From positions 1 through 64,000 of the forward strand of contig CANNEK010000001.1 in NCBI GenBank assembly GCA_947503625.1: a stretch of DNA of 64,000 nt. Reading direction: 5' to 3'. This DNA comes from an uncultured Kordiimonas sp. Lineage in GTDB: Bacteria > Pseudomonadota > Alphaproteobacteria > Sphingomonadales > Kordiimonadaceae. Below are positions 36,332-40,855 of the stretch, piece after piece. Each line of letters opens with the position of its first letter. Position 1 is the stretch's first letter. The translations under genes were made by a program, and so were the position numbers. Below the pieces are notes generated by a model. That model was given only the letters and a program-made list of their open reading frames with translations, searched no databases and was not told the DNA's origin.

Positions 36332-38935
36332 TTGAGTTTATTACCGACGCGTATGATTAAACCCATTATTTTTCTATTGGGTTTCTGGGGTTCTGTTTTG
36401 TACGCTGTGCCAGCAAGTGCACAACAGGATGCTGCGCCCCAGCAGGCCGAACTGCCAATTATTCGGCAGGTATCTGTTTCCGGAAACGAACGGGTAGAAC
36501 CTGAGACGATTGCGTCATACCTGACGGTTCGTCCCGGTGATCCATTCGATCCGGCCCTTCTGGATTCCAGTTTGAAAAACCTGTTTGCTACAGGACTTTT
36601 CTCGGATGTGGAATTGACCGAGAATGCTGGCGTTTTGATCGTCCGGGTGGTCGAAAACCCGATCATCAACCGTATTATCTTTGAGGGAAACAAGAAGCTC
36701 GATAACGATGAGCTTATTGAAGAGGTCCGCTTGCGGCCGCGGCAGGTATTCACACGTGCCAGGGTCCGCGCCGACGTTCAGCGTATGCTGGTACTTTATC
36801 AGCGTTCTGGCCGGTTTGCTGCCATTATCGAGCCCAAGGTAGTTCAGCAGGAACAGAACCGTGTAGACCTTGTTTTCGAAATTCAGGAAGGCCCGAAGAC
36901 AAAAGTCAGCAAAATCAACTTTCTGGGCAACAAGATTTTCGGTGATGGCGATCTTCGTGATGTGTTGGCAACAAAAGAAGCGCGCTGGTGGAAGTTTTTT
37001 ACCTCCAACGACACTTTTGATCCCGACAGGCTGGCCTATGATCAACAGGTTTTGCGGCAACATTATTTGAATGAAGGATATGCTGATTTTCGCGTTGTAT
37101 CCGCAGTGTCTGAGCTGACACCGGACCGGGAAGACTTCTTCATTACGTTTACAGTGGAAGAGGGCGAGATATACACCTTCGGTGACATTGAAATCGAAAG
37201 TGAAATCAGAGACGTTAACGAGCTGCTGTTCCGTGCTTTCCTGTTAATGCGGAAAGGTCAGAATTATAACGCGGAATCGATAGAACAAACTATTGAGGCA
37301 CTTTCTAACGCAGCAGGTTTGCTTGGTTACGCCTTCGTGGATGTTCGCCCGCAGATTAATCGGGACCGCGAAAACCGCCTGATGAATATCACTTTCCGCA
37401 TTCTAGATGCCCCTCGGGTTTATGTAGAACGGATCAACATTCGGGGTAACGTGGTTACGCTTGATCGGGTTGTGCGGCGCGAGTTCCGCTTGCAGGAAGG
37501 TGATGCGTTCAACTCCGCACTTGTCGCGCGGTCCGAGAATCGTTTGCGGCAGCTTGATTTCTTCAGGGAAGTCGGAATTGAACAGCTTCAGGGCTCACAG
37601 CCTGATCGTATGGTTCTCGACGTTGCCGTTGAGGAACAGGCTACAGGCGAGTTGAATCTGGGGGCTGGTTTCTCCAGCCTTGAAAACTTCATCTTTGATT
37701 TTTCCATACGTCAACGAAACTTTCAGGGCCGCGGTCAGGACTTGCGTCTTGGGCTAAGACTTTCCGGAATCAGGCAGGAAATCGATCTTGGTTTCACCGA
37801 GCCATACTTCGCCGGTAGGCGTGTTGCCGCAGGCTTTGATATTTTTGCCCGGCGCATTGACAGTAGAAGTTTCGGTGGTCAGTTTGATCAGGATTCGCTT
37901 GGTTTCTCGCTGCGGGCAGGCATGGCGCTGAACGAGTATTGGACACTGTCGACCCGCTATACGCTGCGACAGGACAACACAACTATTCCCATCAGTGAGC
38001 TAACGAGCCGTTTCAACAGCTTTGTCACGCTGCTTGCAGGCCAATTGACGGGTGACCCGGTTGAGGATGCCGAACTACTGGACCAGTTTGATAGAAACGG
38101 TGATGGCGAAATTACTGATATCGACTTTGATACTGATGGCGACGGTCAGTTACAGGATCGGGAGCTTGCTGTTCCTTTTGGTCAGGCGTTTGTCGAGTCT
38201 ATTGGTCGGCGTTTCCAGTCTATTTTTGGGTATACGCTGCAAACCAACACCTTGAACAGTTTCATCAGACCCACTAGGGGGCGCTTGTTCTCGTTCAGCC
38301 AGGATTATGCAGGCCTTTTCGGCGATGTAACCTATCTTCGCACTCGGGTAAATTCTGATAATTACTGGACACCTTGGCCGGGCTGGACATTCCGCGCGAG
38401 CGCAGAGGGTGGCTTTATCACCGGGCTTGGGCAAAATGTTTTGCTGGCTGACAAATTCTATATTGGTGGCCCGCGGATACGAGGGTTTGACGTTGCAGGC
38501 ATCGGGCCGCGTAACTTCTCTGGCGGAACCGGAGGAAATCGAAATTCTCTGGGGGGCACGGCGTTTTACATCGGTCGTGCAGAGCTTTTCTTCCCGCTCG
38601 GCGAAGCAGCGCTCGAATCCGGTATCAATGCTTCGGTATTTATTGATGCAGGCTCCTTGTTCCGCGGTCGAATTGATGATATTCCCAATTGCGAATTTTC
38701 CTTGAGGGAGTTTGAAGACTTTGAAGCTGCGTCAGCTGAAGACCCTGACCTGGTGTTCCCGTTTTCAACCAATTGTGTTGCGGGCGACAGTATTTCACCC
38801 AGGGTAGCGGTTGGAATTGGCTTCTCGTGGCAGTCGCCGTTCGGGCCTTTCCGGATTGATCTGACAAGGACATTGAAGAAACAACTTGGCGACAGAACTC
38901 AAAGCCTACAGTTTAACGTGGGAACAGCATTTTAA
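36332..38935 (+). CDS. bamA: Outer membrane protein assembly factor BamA, with EF-hand-like insertion
   Basis: Central component of the machine that inserts beta-barrels into the outer membrane. It has 867 residues from TTG 36332, or 860 from ATG 36353. Signal peptide ends near PASA-Q; five POTRA domains span about 40-430; a 16-strand barrel follows, with the lid motif RIRGF and an aromatic C-terminal end (VGTAF). Odd: residues 587-611 contain two consecutive EF-hand-type loops (DRNGDGEITDID and DTDGDGQLQDRE) within an enlarged loop of the barrel that should face outside. The start is uncertain between TTG and ATG. Confidence 0.97.
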   Translation: MSLLPTRMIKPIIFLLGFWGSVLYAVPASAQQDAAPQQAELPIIRQVSVSGNERVEPETIASYLTVRPGDPFDPALLDSSLKNLFATGLFSDVELTENAGVLIVRVVENPIINRIIFEGNKKLDNDELIEEVRLRPRQVFTRARVRADVQRMLVLYQRSGRFAAIIEPKVVQQEQNRVDLVFEIQEGPKTKVSKINFLGNKIFGDGDLRDVLATKEARWWKFFTSNDTFDPDRLAYDQQVLRQHYLNEGYADFRVVSAVSELTPDREDFFITFTVEEGEIYTFGDIEIESEIRDVNELLFRAFLLMRKGQNYNAESIEQTIEALSNAAGLLGYAFVDVRPQINRDRENRLMNITFRILDAPRVYVERINIRGNVVTLDRVVRREFRLQEGDAFNSALVARSENRLRQLDFFREVGIEQLQGSQPDRMVLDVAVEEQATGELNLGAGFSSLENFIFDFSIRQRNFQGRGQDLRLGLRLSGIRQEIDLGFTEPYFAGRRVAAGFDIFARRIDSRSFGGQFDQDSLGFSLRAGMALNEYWTLSTRYTLRQDNTTIPISELTSRFNSFVTLLAGQLTGDPVEDAELLDQFDRNGDGEITDIDFDTDGDGQLQDRELAVPFGQAFVESIGRRFQSIFGYTLQTNTLNSFIRPTRGRLFSFSQDYAGLFGDVTYLRTRVNSDNYWTPWPGWTFRASAEGGFITGLGQNVLLADKFYIGGPRIRGFDVAGIGPRNFSGGTGGNRNSLGGTAFYIGRAELFFPLGEAALESGINASVFIDAGSLFRGRIDDIPNCEFSLREFEDFEAASAEDPDLVFPFSTNCVAGDSISPRVAVGIGFSWQSPFGPFRIDLTRTLKKQLGDRTQSLQFNVGTAF

Positions 38936-38954
38936 GAGTACATGGGGTACAGAC

Positions 38955-39617
38955 ATGCGAAATTTCGCAAAGACAATAAAAGTGGCCGCAACAGGCCTTG
39001 TGATGGCGGCCAGCGTATCATTTGCGGCGGTAGCTGATATATTGATCATTGATGACGAGCGCGTTGAGCGCGAAGCGGCAGCATACAAAGATTTTAATCT
39101 GCAGACCAATCAGATTCGTGAGGCCATCGTGTCTCTACGTAATCGTTTGGCGCGCGGTGGTACGTTTGAACAGGCTTTGGCTGATTTTGACGCACGGCAG
39201 AAAGCCGCAAAAGCGGATCTTGATCAACGTAAATCGATCATTGGTAACGACGCTTATCAGGCTGAGCTTACAGCCAAGGAAACAGAGTTTCAGCAGGAAG
39301 GGCAGCAGTTGAACCTGTCTTACCAGACTGAAACGGAGCAGTTGTCCCGTTTGGAGCTTGTATTTGATCGCTTGCGTCAGGAAGCCCAAACCCAGGTCGA
39401 GCGTGCTCGCCAGCCTGTGTTGCGGAACATTCTCGGGGAGCGCGGTGCCAAAATTATCATGCGTAAACGTTTGGTAATGGGTTCTGCCGCAGGCCTCGAT
39501 GTCACCACAGAGTTTATTGAGCAGCTTGATGCAGCGTTGCCAACCGTAACATTGCAGTTGCTTCAGCAACAGCAGACGGACAGTGCTGCACAGCCAGCGG
39601 AAGAGGGCGGTCAGTAA
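38955..39617 (+). CDS. skp: OmpH/Skp family periplasmic chaperone
   Basis: Holds unfolded outer-membrane proteins in the periplasm for BamA. It has 220 residues. Signal peptide about 1-27 (MRNFAKTIKVAATGLVMA...FAAVA), then a long charged coiled-coil region (about 45-150) forming the tentacle, with a Gln-rich end. Sequence is diverged from E. coli Skp, but position directly after bamA and architecture agree. I chose ATG 38955 because the upstream frame overlaps bamA and would mask the signal peptide. Confidence 0.88.
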   Translation: MRNFAKTIKVAATGLVMAASVSFAAVADILIIDDERVEREAAAYKDFNLQTNQIREAIVSLRNRLARGGTFEQALADFDARQKAAKADLDQRKSIIGNDAYQAELTAKETEFQQEGQQLNLSYQTETEQLSRLELVFDRLRQEAQTQVERARQPVLRNILGERGAKIIMRKRLVMGSAAGLDVTTEFIEQLDAALPTVTLQLLQQQQTDSAAQPAEEGGQ

Positions 39618-40345: not shown

Positions 40346-40855
40346 ATGTCTACGATACCTGGAACAAATGGCGATGATACAATCAATGGAACGTCCGGTG
40401 ATGACATGATCTGGGCGAAGAATGGAGACGACCTCGTTAATGCCGGGGCAGGAAATGACACCATTGGTGGCGCTCTTGGTCGGGATACCCTAAATGGGGA
40501 TAACGGTAATGACGTTATCTTTGGTGCTCGCGGTCAAGACAGGATAAACGGTGGAAACGGCGACGATACCATTTGGGGCGGGAACAACGATGACACGCTA
40601 AATGGTGGCTTTGGTGCCGATAAGTTCTTCTTTTCCAATGACGACGATGCCGATCTAATAATTGGTTTTCTACCCAGCGAAGGAGATGAAATTCACTTGG
40701 ATTCCAACGTCGGCAGCTATTCAATCACTGCCTTCTTCTTCCCAACCGGTCTTGTCTCAAACTATGTAATCAATATGGGTGGAGGTGACACCATCAGCGT
40801 TACGAATACAGGCTTCACACAAACAGAGCTGGAAGATGCCATCGTGGTTTTTTAG
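40346..40855 (+). CDS. RTX (hemolysin-type) calcium-binding repeat protein
   Basis: A 169-residue acidic protein. Residues 6-95 are ten uninterrupted nonapeptide repeats of the form GGxGxDxUx (for example GGNGDDTIW), which fold as a calcium-bound parallel beta roll. Residues 96-169 form a non-repeat C-terminal domain ending DAIVVF, similar in character to uncleaved C-terminal signals for type I secretion. No signal peptide, catalytic domain or type I secretion genes are nearby. AAAGGA precedes ATG 40346. Monocistronic, flanked by terminators. Function unknown. Confidence 0.88.
   Translation: MSTIPGTNGDDTINGTSGDDMIWAKNGDDLVNAGAGNDTIGGALGRDTLNGDNGNDVIFGARGQDRINGGNGDDTIWGGNNDDTLNGGFGADKFFFSNDDDADLIIGFLPSEGDEIHLDSNVGSYSITAFFFPTGLVSNYVINMGGGDTISVTNTGFTQTELEDAIVVF

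Follow-up and report, generated by a model that had tools for sequence, protein, structure and literature searches.

The BamA protein encoded in the 64,000-nucleotide stretch of Kordiimonas DNA analysed here (the window) carries, in extracellular loop 4, an insert with two adjoining EF-hand-type loops, and alignments across the Kordiimonas family indicate that their ligand positions are kept by purifying selection. The insert is probably a structural clip, in which Ca2+ (or Ca2+/Mg2+) stiffens the loop at the mouth of the barrel; the binding of metal by the loops, the identity of the metal and its structural role are what we infer.

EF-hand-type loops in loop 4 of BamA

The bamA gene stands downstream of dxr and rseP on the forward strand of the window (Table 1). 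Its product scored 706.2 bits against the BamA equivalog model TIGR03303 (cut-off 297.15) and has the five POTRA domains and Omp85 barrel of the BamA fold, as judged from Pfam POTRA and Omp85 matches and from the barrel fold. It is 80% identical to the BamA of Kordiimonas aquimaris. The ORF directly after bamA (38931-39617), in the usual place of skp, gave no Pfam match at E <= 1e-4; judged from its position, it is likely to encode a diverged Skp-like chaperone. A second calcium-type protein, 169 residues long and made up of RTX calcium-binding repeats (PF00353, E 1.9e-19), is encoded nearby (40346-40855); its gene is flanked by fabZ and by an ORF whose product looks, on visual inspection, like citrate synthase.

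Table 1. Coordinates of bamA and of the features in and around its loop 4 insert
Feature	Window position	Strand	Basis or remark
bamA, outer membrane protein assembly factor	36332..38935	+	867 aa counted from TTG start; ATG at 36353
Barrel strand 7, residues 537-551	37940..37984	+	AlphaFold2 model
Helical insert in extracellular loop 4, residues 554-624	37991..38203	+	Alignment with insert-less relatives and E. coli BamA
Predicted E-helix-like helix into site 1, residues 576-586	38057..38089	+	Both models; the segment's Pfam EF-hand_5 match begins inside the helix
EF-hand-type loop 1, DRNGDGEITDID, residues 587-598	38090..38125	+	Sequence, conservation
Predicted one-turn helix, residues 596-599, closes site 1 and leads to site 2	38117..38128	+	Both models
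EF-hand-type loop 2, DTDGDGQLQDRE, residues 600-611	38129..38164	+	Sequence, conservation
Predicted one-turn helix, residues 609-612, closes site 2	38156..38167	+	Both models
Barrel strand 8, residues 625-639	38204..38248	+	AlphaFold2 model

The two loops are real and lie exactly where the preliminary description had placed them, and their assignment to extracellular loop 4 was confirmed by alignment with E. coli BamA and with relatives. Each loop has the features of an EF-hand loop as found in EF-hand_5 (PF13202) and in calmodulin-type hands: 12 residues, ligands at positions 1, 3, 5 and 12, Gly at 6 and an aliphatic residue at 8. In a standard EF-hand pair the loops start roughly 36 residues apart. 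In BamA, by contrast, the starts are 13 residues apart, which leaves space for one helical turn, and a canonical pair, with two helix-loop-helix units side by side, was therefore rejected; the earlier description as EF-hand-like holds for the loops themselves and not for an ordinary EF-hand pair. Comparison of the insert with known structures found no significant similarity. We take the closely spaced successive motifs to recall thrombospondin type 3 repeats.

To obtain models of the insert, AlphaFold2 was run metal-free with 7 sequences, both on the barrel and on the insert alone. Both models predict the same helices in a helix-loop-turn-loop arrangement with fair local confidence (block pLDDT over the loops of 76-84 for the barrel and 72-86 for the insert alone), the barrel model being weak overall (mean pLDDT 55.7). 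A predicted helix leads into loop 1, as in a calmodulin-type EF-hand, and short helical turns would follow both loops, so that the modelled exits are single turns. Elsewhere in the barrel, Cys 787 and Cys 815 (window 38690-38776) are invariant in the 7 aligned sequences; they sit between model strands 13 and 14, where the model is poor, and may form a disulfide in loop 7.

Searches with family profiles gave matches to EF-hands that depended on the context searched. EF-hand_5 (cut-off 25.9) scored 21.4 bits on the whole of BamA, below the cut-off, 27.5 bits on the segment alone, above it, and 28.7 bits on bamA in a genome search with neighbours included. In the family of relatives considered below, 15 of the 27 segments matched EF-hand_5 at E <= 0.01 and 6 matched Dockerin_1. 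A profile of the whole segment found calmodulin-type chains at E 1e-4 at best. From the 20 segments in which both sites are intact we also built a core profile of 16, setting aside two near-duplicates and two segments with an internal insertion. It matched calmodulin at E 2e-12, a value summed over four hands (best single hand 0.042), and the match spans loop 1 and its helix only.

The loops are also rare in their surroundings. Back-translated, the loop pattern matched the window at the two loops only, with 0.08 matches expected, and none of the other reading frames of at least 80 residues in the window holds such a loop. Across the whole genome EF-hand_5 gave four matches at E <= 0.1, apparently in three open frames including bamA. 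It is argued that the DxDxDG motif arose repeatedly by convergence, with Asp-rich stretches helping (PMC3123361), and the pair here might be suspected to have arisen by chance, or to be a relic, in an acidic linker. This is scarcely credible: when the 71-residue insert was shuffled, at least one loop appeared in 699 of 200,000 shuffles but two loops in 0 of 200,000, and 25 of the 27 family members have an intact site 1.

Conservation and selection in the Kordiimonas family

BamA was recovered from 27 of the 29 genomes of group f1, here called the Kordiimonas family; the two that gave none are draft assemblies in 250 and 410 contigs. Loop 4 is long in all 27 (segment of 81-105 residues). The preliminary description had set beforehand that free variation or absence of the motifs in close relatives would tell against them. 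We looked for both and found instead that ligands 1, 3, 5 and 12 are intact at site 1 in 25 of the 27, at site 2 in 21 and at both sites in 20. Site 2 is lost in 6 BamAs, site 1 in 2, and both in 1 (L037), i.e. one or both sites are lost in 7/27. Since some members of the family lack them, the sites are not essential to BamA. The only two BamAs without site 1, L036 and L037, form one clade, and L037 has kept the long loop without either site; these two would serve as natural controls.

Variation within the insert avoids the putative ligands. The ten lowest-entropy positions of the 71 (587, 598, 611, 602, 605, 591, 600, 589, 594 and 592) are all EF key positions. Mean entropy is 1.00 bit at the eight ligands compared with 2.26 for the insert, and of 100,000 sets of eight positions drawn at random, 0 gave a value as low. 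Two key positions of loop 2 fall below the others: position 5 (residue 604) ranks 18th in conservation and position 8 is variable. Every one of the 25 intact copies of site 1 has Asp at position 12; at site 2 this residue is mostly Glu. Most substitutions preserve a metal ligand (D/N at position 3, D/S/N at 5 and D/E at 12), and third codon bases and synonymous codons vary while the key residues stay.

Substitution rates give a similar picture. Among 8 close relatives, pN/pS was 0.040 at the key positions, 0.41 in the rest of the insert and 0.22 in the flanking strands. Across all 27 the corresponding values were 0.23, 0.71 and 0.28, so that at this depth the constraint on the key positions is only about equal to that on the flanking strands. 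Overall, the pattern is the one expected of a metal site within a fast-evolving loop.

These rates bear on two other explanations of the insert. If loop 4 were a variable surface decoy, diversifying against phages or bacteriocins with the acidic motif incidental, its differences in length and sequence between families would be expected. We regard this as very improbable, because the positions that are fixed are those of the metal ligands and are under purifying selection. Alternatively, the insert could be a docking platform for a surface lipoprotein or another part of BAM, the loops forming an interface that is either acidic or bridged by calcium. Flavobacterium offers a parallel: there the calcium-binding lipoprotein BamM docks on a 76-residue insert in loop 5 of BamA (PMC12611786). 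Because the insert changes rapidly outside its ligand positions (pN/pS 0.41 to 0.71), unlike a conserved protein interface, docking appears quite improbable.

Distribution, origin and a probably LPS-free membrane

To follow the insert outside the family, segment lengths were compared across 22 BamAs from five other families of the order, the one BamA of family f3 and 49 BamAs from other orders. The alignment left out L039-L044 (duplicates of rows already included), L045-L046 (Chlorobium type) and paralogue loci. The segment has 25-32 residues in the five sister families, 60 in the f3 protein and 26-83 (median 28) in the other orders. Conservation of the pair in BamAs of related groups, which had been left as a check, thus holds within the Kordiimonas family and stops there: the motif is absent from the 22 BamAs of the five sister families and from the 49 of other orders. 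In the six families of the order other than f1 and f5, the motif is missing from all of the BamAs aligned (23/23).

A segment profile searched against 398 genomes of the phylum gave full-length matches only in the 3 of them that belong to the family, and partial matches in 17 genomes of group f5 and in 2 of other families; the matches G810 and G812 were left out of the follow-on comparison. Group f5, which we infer to be the Sphingomonadaceae, has a shorter loop 4 insert (e.g. in L104, L109, L110 and L113). The motif Dx[DN]x[DN]G is present in 10 of 20 of these BamAs and at least two cysteines in all 20, and the f5 insert is perhaps a second, disulfide-braced calcium site.

In a quick tree built without loop 4, using 76 of 119 rows, the Kordiimonas family is one clade (SH-aLRT 100), and the neighbouring family f6 has no insert. 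The simplest history is therefore a single gain at the base of the family, followed by decay of sites in some lineages. In the tree, motif-less families come between f5 and f1, so the f5 motif is likely, though not proven, to have arisen separately.

LpxC was over the cut-off in 0/29 genomes of the family, with one weak match below it, and LpxB and LpxD were each over the cut-off in 0/29; the positive controls, E. coli and Caulobacter among them, were detected each time. With none of the three enzymes over the cut-off in 29 genomes, the BAM of the Kordiimonas family probably works in a membrane without LPS or lipid A. Outside the family, LpxC was over the cut-off in 0/29 f5 genomes and in 0/23 genomes of the other six families of the order, compared with 26/33 genomes of other orders. 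No genome sampled from the GTDB order thus has LpxC over the cut-off, and lipid A synthesis seems to have been lost.

Both motif-bearing families (f1 and f5) fall within the LpxC-less group, as do the six motif-less families, and a tie between loss of LPS and the loop 4 motif is a lead, not a result. One form of it would be that, without LPS, BAM took over part of the dependence on divalent cations that LPS otherwise brings to the surface. The DxDxDG-type motifs in loop 4 of two LpxC-less families, double EF-type loops in f1 and a single motif plus a cysteine pair in f5, would then make BAM conformation calcium-dependent. We consider this unlikely.

A probable structural clip at the barrel mouth

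In the structural clip that we favour, each of the two adjoining loops would hold one Ca2+ at seawater-like concentrations, Kordiimonas being marine. An Asp at EF-hand position 12 weakens the preference for Ca2+ over Mg2+, so site 1, which ends in Asp, perhaps takes either ion and may be a mixed Ca2+/Mg2+ site in seawater. The ions would fold the acidic insert, floppy without them, into a rigid cap next to the mouth of the barrel; this cap would protect the mouth and fix where loop 4 sits over the pore. The bound ion would probably be a constant structural part, not a switch.

A switch would require that Ca2+ on loop 4 alters the lateral gate or the barrel lid, with BAM activity tracking the calcium outside. 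Seawater calcium is nearly constant and leaves little to sense, and one or both sites are lost in 7 of the 27 relatives. The sites are nonetheless conserved, and in E. coli BamA is open to control through loop 4: the antibody MAB1 binds there and inhibits the protein (PMC6287456, PMC10180388). On balance, we find a calcium switch rather improbable.

Several known systems parallel the loops and the proposed clip. The BamA loops are closer to the free DxDxDG calcium motif than to a calmodulin pair (Rigden et al., PMC3123361). This motif, Dx[DN]xDG, is mostly extracellular and is found in unrelated folds (Rigden et al. 2011, PMC3123361). The host here is the BamA barrel; in that paper the words 'outer membrane' and 'barrel' each occur 0 times. 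In BtuB, extracellular loop L2 is restrained by a pair of Ca2+ ions that sit in an Asp cage (PMC7360065), a precedent for calcium ordering a surface loop in an outer membrane barrel. However, BtuB is a transporter, and its Asp cage lies near the substrate site and, in the excerpts of that paper drawn on, is not described as EF-hand loops (PMC7360065). The Flavobacterium johnsoniae BAM likewise combines calcium with a long BamA loop insert on the extracellular side, but its seven ions are bound by the lipoprotein BamM, and the insert, in loop 5, forms a beta-sheet domain (PMC12611786).

The statement in the preliminary description that calcium binding is not known for BamA agrees with the literature searched: there was no report of a calcium or EF-hand site in BamA among the matches listed from open-licence papers. 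Orientia BamA is named in an illustration of proteins computer-predicted to bind metals, with no metal or site given in the part of the paper concerned (PMC6769048). In the relevant part of a paper that names both BamA and EF-hand, the EF-hand concerns S100 proteins (PMC7857515).

BamA, an essential protein, is under study as a target for drugs that act from outside the cell, with loop 4 a known attack point in E. coli. The putative double calcium-type site, conserved on the BamA surface in the Kordiimonas family, is directly testable. If true, a conserved metal site in loop 4 would be a simple handle on whether surface loops steer barrel insertion, and on how BAM adapts to LPS-free membranes; the DxDxDG calcium motif would also have arisen in one more setting, the insertase.
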